Below are positions 1 through 10,863 of a stretch of 10,882 bases of DNA, in pieces. Origin of the DNA: a candidate division NPL-UPA2 bacterium (GTDB lineage: Bacteria; NPL-UPA2; JAGMAN01); NCBI GenBank assembly GCA_021129695.1, contig JAJOKU010000066.1, positions 1 through 10,882 of the forward strand, written 5' to 3'. A program made the position numbers and the translations under genes. Positions within the stretch are counted from its first letter, which is position 1. Each line of letters opens with the position of its first letter. The notes under the pieces are model-generated. The model made no database searches. It was not told the origin of the DNA and saw only the letters and a list, made by a program, of their open reading frames with translations.

Positions 1-50
1 CTCTCCGTCGGTAGTGAATGTTTATGAACGGGAGATCTGCGGAAGTTGGG
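1..50. mobile_element. Right end of a MITE-like inverted-repeat element, copy 1, cut by the window edge
   Basis: Bases 1-53 are identical, base for base, to 3440-3492, the right third of the complete element near the 5' end of the GAF-ANTAR gene. As there, it ends in the terminal repeat GCGGAAGTTGGG (39-50). It is followed by TTATAA (51-56), which resembles the TTACAA duplication flanking the complete copy. The sequence diverges at base 54, which supports the inferred element border. The element's left part lies outside the window. It sits 14 bp beyond the stop codon of the aminotransferase gene, so it does not disrupt that gene. Confidence 0.75.
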
Positions 51-1616: not shown

Positions 1617-3236
1617 ATGACCAAGTATATCTTCATTACCGGTGGAGTGCTTTCTTCCCTGGGAAAAGGAATTGCGGCTTCCTCCATTGGTTGCCTTTTA
1701 GAGAGCCGGGGCCTGAGGGTAAGCCTGCAGAAGATAGACCCTTATCTCAATGTTGACCCGGGGACGATGAGCCCCTTCCAGCACGGGGAAGTGTATGTCA
1801 CTGATGATGGAGCGGAGACAGACCTTGATCTGGGACACTACGAGCGTTTCACCAGCCTGAACACCGGCCAGAAAAGCAATTTCACCGCTGGACAGATTTA
1901 TCACTCCATACTCAGTAAGGAAAGGCGGGGAGATTATCTGGGGGGGACGGTTCAGGTTGTTCCCCATGTAACTGATGAGATTAAAAGATTCATCAGGAGG
2001 GTGGCTCGGGGGAGGAGATTGGATGTAGTCATCGTTGAGGTGGGAGGCACCGTTGGTGATATAGAGGGGCTTCCTTTCTTAGAGGCTATCCGGCAATTCC
2101 CACTGGACATCGGAAAAGAAAATTGCCTCTATATTCATCTCACCTTAGTCCCTTATATTAAGAGCGCCAACGAGATAAAGACGAAGCCCACTCAGCACAG
2201 CGTGGCCCGGCTGCGGGAGATTGGGATACAGCCGGAGATACTGCTCTGCCGGACAGAAAAGCCATTTTCCAGGGAGGCAAAGCGCAAGATAGCCCTCTTC
2301 TGCAATGTTACCGAAGAGGCTATCATTCAGGCCATTGATGTTGATTCCATCTATGAGGTCCCTCTCGTCTTCAAAGAGCAGGGATTAGACAGGACTATCA
2401 TTAAGCGGCTTGGCCTTCCCCGAAAGAGGCAGGACCTATCCCAATGGGAGGAGGTGCTCAGGCGGCTTAAGGATCCGTCCACTTCCACTGAAATTGCCGT
2501 CATCGGGAAATATGTTGGCCTGCAGGATGCCTATAAGAGCATCAACGAGGCTCTAATTCACGCCGGGGCAGCCAATAGCTGTCAGGTGAAGACTAAATGG
2601 GTGGATGCTGAGGAGATTGAGAAAGAGGGCCCAGATAAGTTGCTTTCAGGGGTAAGGGGAATCTTAGTTCCCGGTGGGTTTGGGAGCCGGGGGATTGAAG
2701 GAAAGATAACTGCCATTAGATATGCCCGGGAGAGAAAAGTTCCTTTACTGGGAATCTGTCTGGGCATGCAGTGTGCCGTAATAGAGTTCGCTCGCCATGT
2801 CTGTGGTCTCAAGGGAGCCAATAGCTCTGAATTCAATCCCACAACCCCTCATGCGGTAATTGACCTGCTTCCTGAGCAACGAAAGATAAAAGACAAGGGG
2901 GGGACAATACGACTGGGTTCCTATCCATGCAAACTTTCTCGCAACTCCTTAGCTCGTAAGGCTTATGGAAAGAATAGAATTGGAGAGAGGCATCGGCATC
3001 GTTACGAATTCAATATGCAGTATAAGAGACAGCTGACGGAAGCGGGGATGGAGCTTAGTGGTCTCTCCCCGGATGGCCGCCTGGTGGAGATTATTGAGAT
3101 AAGTGACCATCCCTGGTTCGTTGCCTGCCAGTTCCATCCTGAATTTAAGTCAAAGTTGAGCCAGCCCCATCCTCTCTTCCGCGATTTCATTAAGGCCAGT
3201 CTGTGCCCGCCCCAGGCGGATTCGGATAAAGGATAA
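1617..3236 (+). CDS. pyrG: CTP synthase (glutamine-hydrolysing)
   Basis: Makes CTP from UTP, ATP and glutamine, the last step of de novo CTP synthesis in the cytosol. The 539-aa length is normal for the family. The N-terminal amidoligase domain (about 1-265) has the P-loop region [18 protein letters not shown] (6-23) and the strongly conserved [19 protein letters not shown] stretch. The C-terminal class I glutaminase domain (about 290-539) has LLGICLGMQ with nucleophile Cys381 and FHPEF with His507 and Glu509, close to the E. coli numbering. ATG 1617 is chosen because the protein then begins [10 protein letters not shown] like its relatives, because GGAG lies 7 nt upstream, and because the in-frame TTG at 1536 lies upstream of the promoter. 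No terminator is apparent after the stop, and the regulator gene begins 64 nt later. Confidence 0.97.
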
Positions 3237-3269
3237 TGTTGATTAACTGGAACGAGTTTCGTTACAGTC

Positions 3270-3291
3270 TATCATAACAAGCAAGGAGGAG
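3270..3291 (+). promoter_or_regulatory. Weak -10 element and ribosome site of the GAF-ANTAR gene
   Basis: TATCAT (3270-3275) matches five of six -10 positions, but no good -35 box is correctly spaced, so the promoter is doubtful. AAGGAGGAG (3283-3291) is a strong ribosome site 9 nt before TTG at 3301. That site decides the ancestral start, because translation from TTG runs into the GAF reading frame once the inserted element is removed. A 10-bp palindrome, AACTCGAGTT (3293-3302), overlaps the start codon. Confidence 0.4.
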
Positions 3292-3300
3292 CAACTCGAG

Positions 3301-4181
3301 TTGAAACCTTCTCGACCAACATATGCCAGGCGGATTAAAGCCTTACAACCCAACTTCCGCACTTCGCCAGTTTTCATCTGGCTCTCCGACGGAAGAGCTT
3401 GAAAAAGTGTCGGTAACACATTTTGATTTAGAAAAATGCCTCTCCGTCGGTAGTGAATGTTTATGAACGGGAGATCTGCGGAAGTTGGGTTACAAGAGAT
3501 AAGTAAGACCATTGTTTCTGACCTTTATCTTGACGATATACTGCACTTAATAGTTACGGTGACGGCCGGGGTGATGAATTCAAAGATTTGCTCCCTTTGG
3601 TTTTTAGAGGAAAAGGAGAAAGAATTGAGCCTGCGGGCTACTCAAGCTATAGATGAGGAATATCTCAAGGAAAGAGCCTTAAAATTAGGGGAAGGAATTG
3701 TCGGCATTGTGGCCAAGCAGAAAAAACCTATGAAAATCTCAGATGTTCTAAAAGAGCCAAAGTACAAAGAGAAAAGGTTAGCTAAAAAACTCGGACTTTG
3801 TTCTATGTTGAGTGTTCCTATGCAGGTGAAAGGCAAAGTCATTGGAGCAATAAACAGTTATACTTCTACCCCTCACCGATTTACCAAAACCGAAATAGAA
3901 ACTCTTGCTGCGGTAGCCAATCAGGCGGCCATTGTCATAGAGAATACCCAGTTGATGGTAAGGACTAAAATTATTCAAGAGGAGCTTGAGACGCGCAAGG
4001 TTGTAGAGAAAGCCAAGGGTATTTTGATGAAAGAAAGTGGTTTGACAGAGGAAGAGGCCTTTCGCCGGATACAGAAAAAAGTATGGATACCCGAAAGTCA
4101 ATGCGAGAAATTGCCGAGGCCATTATTCTCTCCAGGGAGTTGCAAAAAGGCTCTGCGGGGGCTTTAAAGAAAAGGAGGTAG
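3301..4181 (+). pseudogene. GAF-ANTAR transcription antiterminator, interrupted by a MITE and a frameshift
   Basis: Removing the 147 bp from 3343 to 3489 joins ...RRIKA to LQEISKTIVS..., the usual N-terminus before a GAF domain. The repaired protein would be 244 aa: GAF sensor domain about 25-165, linker, then ANTAR RNA-binding domain about 180-236. ANTAR proteins bind nascent RNA hairpins and prevent termination, as in NasR and AmiR. Two lesions are visible. The element brings an in-frame TGA (3400-3402), leaving a 33-codon fragment; an ATG at 3457, inside the element, opens a shortened 236-codon frame. After a run of six A (4075-4080) the frame also turns to nonsense ending at 4167. One base back, it continues as SMDTRKSMREIAEAIIL, the expected last ANTAR helices, to TAG (4179-4181). 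The neighbouring PII gene suggests a nitrogen-control role. The frameshift could be a sequencing error; the insertion is not easily dismissed. Confidence 0.85.
3343..3495. mobile_element. MITE-like element with 12-bp terminal inverted repeats and 6-bp target duplication
   Basis: The element body is 141 bp (3349-3489), bounded by CCCAACTTCCGC (3349-3360) and its exact complement GCGGAAGTTGGG (3478-3489). A second inverted pair, CCGACGGA (3386-3393) and TCCGTCGG (3443-3450), lies inside. TTACAA flanks the body on both sides (3343-3348, 3490-3495). Deleting the element and one TTACAA restores the GAF protein's reading frame, strong evidence for true insertion. It encodes no plausible transposase, so it would be mobilised in trans. 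The right 53 bases recur at the window's left edge. The two flanks read TTACAA and TTATAA, suggesting a TTAYAA-like target preference. I cannot name the insertion-sequence family. Confidence 0.8.
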
Positions 4182-5866: not shown

Positions 5867-5964
5867 GGCAGTACGAGGAAGTATTGCCAGTAATCTATAA
5901 CCCGTGAGATCAACGGGATAGAGACGAAGGTGTCCGCTTCTGAGAGAGGGCACCTTTTCTGTTT
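5867..5964 (+). ncRNA. Structured attenuator-like leader of the glutamate synthase gene
   Basis: Three stems can be drawn. Hairpin 1 (5867-5888) pairs GGCAGTAC with GTATTGCC around a six-base loop, GAGGAA. Hairpin 2 (5894-5922) pairs TCTAT and CCCGT, separated by a bulged AA, with ACGGG and ATAGA around a seven-base loop. A third, alternative mini-hairpin, GAC-GAAGGT-GTC (5923-5934), shares bases with the terminator stem, so the two cannot coexist. Two six-base loops closed by identical C-G and A-T pairs, with the second overlapping a terminator, recall the dual-hexaloop RNAs bound by ANTAR proteins, one of which is encoded 1.6 kb upstream. The first loop base is G rather than the expected A, while loop position 4 is the expected G. 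An unlisted riboswitch is an alternative. Confidence 0.45.
5927..5964 (+). terminator. Intrinsic terminator in the glutamate synthase leader
   Basis: AAGGTGTCC (5927-5935) pairs with GGGCACCTT (5948-5956) over nine base pairs with one G-T, around a 12-base loop. TTCTGTTT follows as an imperfect U tract. Because it lies after a promoter and about 150 nt before the gene, it looks like an attenuator rather than an end-of-operon terminator. Confidence 0.55.
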
Positions 5965-9996: not shown

Positions 9997-10863
9997 ATGT
10001 TGGCTAAAAGGATTATCCCATGTCTGGATGTTAAAGATGGTCGGGTGGTTAAGGGCGTTCACTTTCTCAATTTAAGGGATGCCGGAGACCCGGTAGAAAT
10101 CGCAGCCCTTTATAGTCAGGGGGGAGCGGATGAACTGGCCTTCTTAGACATCACCGCCACCATTGAAAGCCGCCCCATTATGCTCGAGGTAGTTAAAAGG
10201 ACGGCTGAGGAAGTTTTCATTCCCCTGACGGTAGGAGGAGGAATCAGAGCAGTTGAGGATATAAAAGAGTTGCTTGCCTCTGGGGCAGATAAAGTCTCCA
10301 TAAATACAGCGGTAGTGAAGAATCCAGAGTTGGTAAGAGAAGCCTCAAAAAGATTCGGAAGTCAGTGCATCGTTGTAGCTATTGATGCGAAATTGCATAT
10401 GGCACCTCGCAAATTGCAAATTGTGAATAATATAAACGAAAATCGAATATCGAATAGCGATAAGCCAAAGTGGGAAGTATACATTGATTCTGGTCGCACG
10501 CCAACCGGACTGGATGCTCTTAAGTGGGCAAAGGATGTGGAGAGTTTGGGAGCAGGGGAGATACTTCTGACCAGCATGGATGCTGATGGAACTAAAACCG
10601 GCTATGATCTGGAGCTTACTAAAAGAGTCTCGCAGTCAGTGGATATTCCGGTCATTGCCTCGGGAGGAGCGGGAAACTTGGAGCATCTCTATCAGGTCCT
10701 GACAGAGGGAAAAGCCGATGCCGTCCTGGCTGCCTCAATCTTTCACTATGGAGAATATTCAATTAAAGAGGCGAAACAATATTTGAAAGAGAAAGGCATA
10801 GAAGTAAGATTAATAAATTCAAATATCAAACACGAGTTACGCACCCTTTTTGTAACTATTTGA
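9997..10863 (+). CDS. hisF: Imidazole glycerol phosphate synthase, cyclase subunit, with in-frame insertion and extended C-terminus
   Basis: HisF is a (beta/alpha)8 barrel that cyclises PRFAR with ammonia from HisH. Starting at ATG 9997 gives 288 aa and exact alignment with the standard numbering: Asp11 in [12 protein letters not shown] (9-20) and Asp130 in VVAIDAK (126-132), the two catalytic acids. The in-frame TTG at 9964 overlaps guaA and is not used; AAAGG lies 8 nt before the ATG. The phosphate-binding strands [11 protein letters not shown] (190-200) and ASGGAGN (221-227) are intact. Two features make it longer than the usual 250-256 aa: about 22 extra residues directly after Asp130-Ala-Lys (about 133-154), encoded by heptad repeats, and a 16-residue tail after the normal EVRL terminus (273-288). 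The core is intact, so it is probably functional. Confidence 0.94.
10393..10461. repeat. Heptad-repeat DNA inserted in frame in hisF
   Basis: GCAAATT occurs twice head to tail (10409-10415, 10416-10422). A second array, CGAAAAT, CGAATAT, CGAATAG, CGAT, starts at 10437, 10444, 10451 and 10458, exactly 7 nt apart. The segment coincides with the stretch of hisF that has no counterpart in ordinary family members. Its length keeps the frame and no stop codon is created. Confidence 0.7.
10814..10834. repeat. Short heptad array at the 3' end of hisF
   Basis: TAAATTC, AAATATC and AAACACG start at 10814, 10821 and 10828, spaced 7 nt. They encode part of the C-terminal tail beyond the normal HisF end and resemble the array inside the gene. 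Confidence 0.45.

Follow-up and report, generated by a model that had tools for sequence, protein, structure and literature searches.

The window, i.e. the whole stretch of 10,882 nucleotides analysed here, is contig C16 of a draft genome of 909,787 bp in 167 contigs (~70% complete). Upstream of a PII gene it carries a gene for a GAF-ANTAR regulator, within which a MITE-like element of 141 bp lies on the forward strand. The features of the region are listed by position in the window.

1..50, forward strand: second copy of the element, right part, at the contig start and followed by TTATAA (51-56)
3283..3291, forward strand: AAGGAGGAG, resembling a ribosome-binding site, upstream of the TTG at 3301; this start agrees with the public protein P0001
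3301..3342, forward strand: GAF-ANTAR regulator gene, 5' fragment; the frame ends at TGA 3400-3402 in the element
3343..3348, no strand: left copy of the TTACAA target duplication, doubling as Leu-Gln codons of the host gene; P0001 has a single Leu-Gln
3349..3489, forward strand: 141-bp MITE-like element, identical to the other complete copies in the source genome
3349..3361, forward strand: left terminal inverted repeat, 13 bp, perfect
3386..3393, forward strand: inner inverted pair, left arm
3443..3450, reverse strand: inner inverted pair, right arm
3477..3489, reverse strand: right terminal inverted repeat, 13 bp, perfect
3490..3495, no strand: right copy of the TTACAA target duplication
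3496..4167, forward strand: regulator gene, 3' fragment (GAF, ANTAR), open from an ATG at 3457 inside the element; the frame is lost near 4075-4085

The interrupted regulator gene and its uninterrupted relatives

The frame from the TTG at 3301 yields LKPSRPTYARRIKALQ (with M at the start), enters the element and ends after 17 codons of it at the in-frame TGA, and beyond the element the host frame resumes as LQEISKTIVSDLYLDD, carrying the GAF and ANTAR domains. A preliminary description of this DNA, made from the sequence alone, had already proposed the TTG start and its ribosome site, and both are borne out by AAGGAGGAG at that place and by P0001, which begins at the position of the TTG. The same description put the damage to the gene down to the element's stop alone; the stop is there, but "alone" does not stand, the frame being lost again at ~4075-4085, in an A-rich run at the ANTAR end of the window gene where P0001 is in frame. 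This second loss is either a further lesion or a sequencing error. In the strain with the insertion the regulator is presumably non-functional, and with genes for PII and glutamate dehydrogenase next to it, its loss may alter nitrogen control.

The terminal inverted repeat comprises the first and last 13 bases of the element; it is perfect, as described earlier, and one base longer than the 12 bp then given. Its length becomes 15 if two target bases are counted on each side, but the outer A/T bases vary among the copies and were therefore assigned to the target. The inner inverted pair and the TTACAA on both sides were located as previously described. When 200 mononucleotide shuffles of the stretch 3200-3600 (401 bases) were searched for inverted repeats with outer ends 60-220 apart, the longest perfect one was 11 bp against 13 bp in the real stretch, and none of the 200 contained an inverted repeat of at least 8 bp flanked by identical 6-mers, which the real stretch has. 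The longest open stretch in the element is 47 codons and it thus holds no transposase gene.

A strong fold is predicted for the element on both strands (z -5.1 and -6.7), as would be expected of a structured regulatory repeat (REP/BIME-like or an RNA gene) spread or kept for its hairpin and not a transposon. Such a fold can, however, come from terminal repeats alone, and the Rfam search of the window gave no match up to E = 1. A constant length, constant borders and the duplicated target speak instead for transposition, and copies lie inside genes, so that a structured repeat is a most improbable explanation and an inserted MITE the preferred one.

The best public match to the regulator is P0001 (244 aa, on a 2,890-bp contig), which reads MKPSRPTYARRIKALQEISKTIVS through the insertion site without interruption. 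The earlier proposal that removal of 147 bp (the element plus one TTACAA) restores a continuous gene agrees with this reading. Apart from the start codon, P0001 shows no mismatch to the left piece of the window gene over 16 residues, nor to the right piece (from the second TTACAA to base 4080) over 197 residues. The homologous regulator genes of the same-genus genomes G001 and G002 are also uninterrupted at this place. The suggested alignment of GAF-ANTAR homologues was made with the best 120 out of 5,976, nine of which (at least 300 aa) were left out; none of the 111 aligned gains residues at the insertion site or carries the 147 bp as conserved protein sequence, and the two with a length difference across the site are both shorter. 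The CTP synthase of the window has a near-identical public counterpart, P0121, in which one residue of 539 differs; P0121 therefore stems from a close relative and not from the window contig itself. P0001 is probably likewise from a close relative, and P0001 and P0121 may come from one and the same sample.

Copies, target sites and interrupted genes in the source genome

A BLAST search with the element against its own genome, one of the checks suggested at the outset, gave 22 matches, one being the opposite arm of the C48 copy, so that the element is repeated at 21 places. Five copies (C16, C15, C48, C56 and C2) are complete and identical over 141 bp, and 16 are partial, with 40-88 bases of the element present before the contig stops; one base differs in the partial copy on C98, and one of the 16 is the window's own start (positions 1-50). 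Contigs break at the element, which is why 16 of the 21 places show one side only, and many assembly breaks in the source genome are explained by it. From 13 distinct left flanks and 12 distinct right flanks, seven of the latter being one-sided, the copy number is put at 13-20 in 0.91 Mb, depending on how the one-sided ends are paired.

The flanks revealed a TTNNAA-like target common to the copies. Among the distinct flanks, NTNNAA is found in 12 of 13 on the left and 10 of 12 on the right, and TTNNAA in 9 and 6 of them, respectively, with background frequencies per position of ~0.020 for NTNNAA and ~0.006 for TTNNAA; the 7-base left flank of C15 was omitted from this count because it is common to two other contigs. 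Exact target duplications are present in three of the five complete copies, TTACAA in C16, TTAAAA in C15 (where the left flank is just 7 bp long, at a contig end) and the 7-bp ATATTAA in C2, and in the other two the flanks match at 5 of 6 bases (TTGAAA/TTGTAA in C48 and CTATAA/CTCTAA in C56). Copies whose flanks show no duplication had been named beforehand as evidence against an insertion; the flanks are exactly duplicated in three cases and nearly so in two. It had also been claimed that target length, target sequence and borders can be read from the single locus. This fails for the target length (6 versus 7 bp, with two imperfect copies), and at a single locus the outer A/T bases could be assigned to the element as well as to the target.

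The added length of 147 bp (141 + 6) is a multiple of three, and two of the three minus-strand frames of the element are open throughout, as might be expected of a coding palindromic insert of the Rickettsia RPE type, which lengthens the protein by an in-frame peptide and leaves the gene alive. Over 47 codons, however, finding two of the six frames open is near chance (~0.6 expected by our own estimate), and the host frame enters the strand that bears the stop. In C2 the 7-bp duplication also shifts the reading frame, and in-frame read-through of an insert occurs in none of the 111 homologues. Rickettsia palindromic elements resemble the present element in size (~150 bp) and in often lying inside genes, but they are described, in a passage of PMC10969869, as in-frame fusions, whereas the window element ends the frame. 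We consider an insert of this type hardly credible and retain a MITE insertion.

Genes at the borders of the copies were studied by a Pfam scan of 10 reading frames, taken from nine copies; in all, 15 copies have 24 boundary frames of at least 40 aa. Coding domains are clearly cut by four copies, namely in the regulator gene (C16), a GspE/PilB-type ATPase (C2; Pfam profile 4-208 and then 207-370), a GH38 glycosidase (C56; profile ending at 175 of 270) and a nitronate monooxygenase (C122; profile starting at 183 of 331). Two more are probably cut, a sulfatase (C97), in which the profile starts at 7 of 301 and the element-facing side has no start codon, and a ParE-like gene (C39), with a profile from 41 of 89 and a score barely above the cut-off. 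The Pfam profiles of SNF2 (C108), a histidine kinase (C131) and SAICAR synthetase (C42) are uncut at the element side, the C48b frame had no Pfam match, and the C48 copy sits between two reading frames. Prokaryotic MITEs are normally intergenic according to a passage of a 2024 review (PMC10969869), and so many copies in coding domains are unusual for bacterial MITEs. The product of the interrupted ATPase gene on C2, including its element-encoded tail, is identical to the public protein P0241 (402 aa, on a 9,977-bp contig), and the C2 junction is thus not confined to one contig; P0241 is possibly from the same sample as the source genome.

These data also bear on an assembly artefact, in which the repeat was stitched wrongly into an intact gene and the strain is truly uninterrupted. 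The element stands at 16 contig ends of a draft, an otherwise identical intact protein exists (P0001), and C56 joins the truncated GH38 gene to sequence upstream of an aspartokinase-like gene with imperfect flank repeats, all of which would fit such an error. In the window, however, the copy is flanked by the two halves of one gene in register, and an exact 6-bp duplication on both sides is the mark of insertion and not of stitching; the interrupted C2 allele is moreover recorded on a separate contig, that of P0241. An artefact at this locus is accordingly very unlikely, if slightly less so than the structured repeat or the RPE-type insert, and a true MITE insertion is preferred.

The borders of C48 (L003) and C56 (L004) have imperfect flanks despite identical elements, for which copy exchange, later mutation or misassembly may be responsible. 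When the adjacency at C56 (the neighbouring aspartokinase-like gene was named by eye) was looked for in relatives, neither of the other two genomes of the genus gave a match to the GH38 fragment, a result that fits copy recombination as well as misassembly there.

Searches for a transposase and for relatives of the element

Outside its own genome the element was found by blastn in none of 59 other genomes, so that the search of related genomes proposed earlier brought no match. Elsewhere in its own genome there is a decayed relative. This relative (positions 1501-1660 of L048, corresponding to G000:C2:19004-19163) has retained the end CCCAAGTTCCGCAGATCT as well as two inner motifs, whose order is unchanged, and is cut off in C2 by an unrelated insertion-sequence end of the same kind as L098 (see below). 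The element family thus probably predates the identical copies seen today. A 20-base end in Teredinibacter, in one stretch of the genome collection, has no partner end in the 8 kb examined and was taken as chance; the reading frames listed for the last 3.5 kb of that stretch are by eye unlike a transposase. Two weak 37-base matches were obtained among plasmids and none among phages, and 12 viral contigs matching the 17-base end pattern, none of whose 12 stretches has an inverted partner, were likewise taken as chance. In literature searches no published description of the 141-bp element was recognised among the matches listed.

A full-length insertion sequence sharing the element's ends, which the preliminary description had recommended looking for, was not found with PF01609, PF00872, PF13612 or end patterns, the own genome being ~70% complete. 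In the phylum set of nine genomes, source genome included, PF01609 gave five matches in three genomes and none in the own genome. Four of these loci were rejected as partner on account of inverted pairs unlike CCCAACTTCC; L099 and L100 hold solitary stretches matching the first 11 bases of CCCAACTTCC with 2 mismatches and without a partner in the listed pairs. The fifth (G002:C66) was rejected as an unrelated insertion sequence with CTGAAAAACC ends. Both PF00872 matches are in G004, at loci with none of the three short end words, and PF13612 gave one weak match, below the cut-off, in G005 and none in the own genome.

With up to 3 mismatches, the 14-base end and its backward control each matched 85 times in the own genome; among the 85 matches of the end itself, the 26 with at most 1 mismatch are ends of the element, and one with 2 mismatches belongs to the decayed relative. 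The 17-base end, with up to 2 mismatches, matched 28 times (27 exact) in the own genome, where its control had 0 matches; the other 8 phylum genomes had 0-2 matches apiece, and their controls 0-6. The partner could be in the third of the genome that the draft lacks, could be hidden as a collapsed repeat, or could come from a transposase family beyond those searched.

As a separate observation, positions 1-2171 of L098 (G002:C66) hold an insertion sequence that appears to be complete: its ends are CTGAAAAACCGAATCGATTTTTT, and it encodes a DDE transposase of 481 aa and a DUF6788 protein of 128 aa. Ends of this type are present on six contigs of the window's genome, five of them at a contig end, and also in G004.

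An origin from the IS982 family was considered and rejected. The likeness consists of direct repeats of variable length and of the 5 of 69 IS982 members that begin with CC; 57 of 69 begin with AC and follow the set pattern AC(N)6T(N)5TT, according to a passage of PMC7335449. In the present element the base outside CCC varies (T in 7, A in 4 and C in 1 of 12 right flanks), and an A is therefore not part of the element end; when an A is added, the TT of that pattern is absent from positions 15-16. PF13612 was, as stated, unmatched in the own genome.

Origin of the insert and comparison with known elements

Identical copies, conserved ends, a target preference, direct repeats and an uninterrupted near-identical allele together argue that the 141 bp are a non-autonomous mobile element (MITE) inserted into the regulator gene by a transposase acting in trans, a reading to which we give a probability of about 0.94. 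A transposase supplied in trans would recognise the 13-bp ends and insert the element into TTACAA of the regulator gene, where staggered cutting followed by gap repair would leave TTACAA on both sides. The insertion is recent and is absent from a close relative, and the spread is multi-site.

According to a passage of PMC10969869, a prokaryotic MITE is short, typically under 500 bp. The element has 141 bp, terminal repeats of 13 bp (the usual range being ~4-30), no transposase gene, several copies and target duplications in young copies (exact in 3/5, 5 of 6 bases in the other 2). It constitutes a new family within a well-known kind of mobile element. What is unusual is that its copies are identical, that so many lie inside genes and that no partner was found, but no single one of these points makes it a new kind.

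MITEAba12 of Acinetobacter, as characterised in a passage of PMC6382973, is 113 bp long and inserted in the regulator gene hns; both systems thus combine terminal inverted repeats and target duplications with a hit in a regulator gene. MITEAba12 has 9-bp duplications and ends in common with the co-resident ISAba12, whereas the window element has NTNNAA duplications of 6-7 bp and ends of 13 bp, and the searches gave no partner for it. Chunjie of Geobacter (235 bp) is likewise a multicopy MITE with one copy disrupting an operon; its 37 further copies, of 178-235 bp, are described in a passage of PMC10969869 as intergenic, in contrast to at least four copies of the window element in coding domains.

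Tentatively, and against the greater likelihood, the MITE family could be midway through a burst in its uncultured host, driven by an undescribed type of insertion sequence whose ends are CCCAACTTCCGCA and whose NTNNAA duplications are 6-7 bp long. If this is true, copies would still be identical, many would lie within genes ahead of selection and close relatives would differ site by site. Undiverged complete copies inside genes would make an early MITE expansion open to study before selection acts, and the insertion offers a clean marker to tell close strains apart in metagenomes.

Two further observations were made in the window. Between the glutamate dehydrogenase and glutamate-synthase-like genes (5868-5960) the transcript is predicted to fold into two hairpins and a terminator-like stem (z -5.4). 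The consensus terminator scan made no call there, Rfam gave 3 matches far below gathering scores, and blastn found this leader in none of the 8 other phylum genomes. As a possible target of the ANTAR regulator it fits poorly, its loops being without the A1/G4 hexaloop of the rule given in a passage of PMC3369931. The second observation concerns the HisF frame, which at 10385-10475 has an AT-rich in-frame insert of ~25 residues in repeat-like DNA, placed by eye; to the eye, the hisF of a same-genus relative (L053) looks different there.
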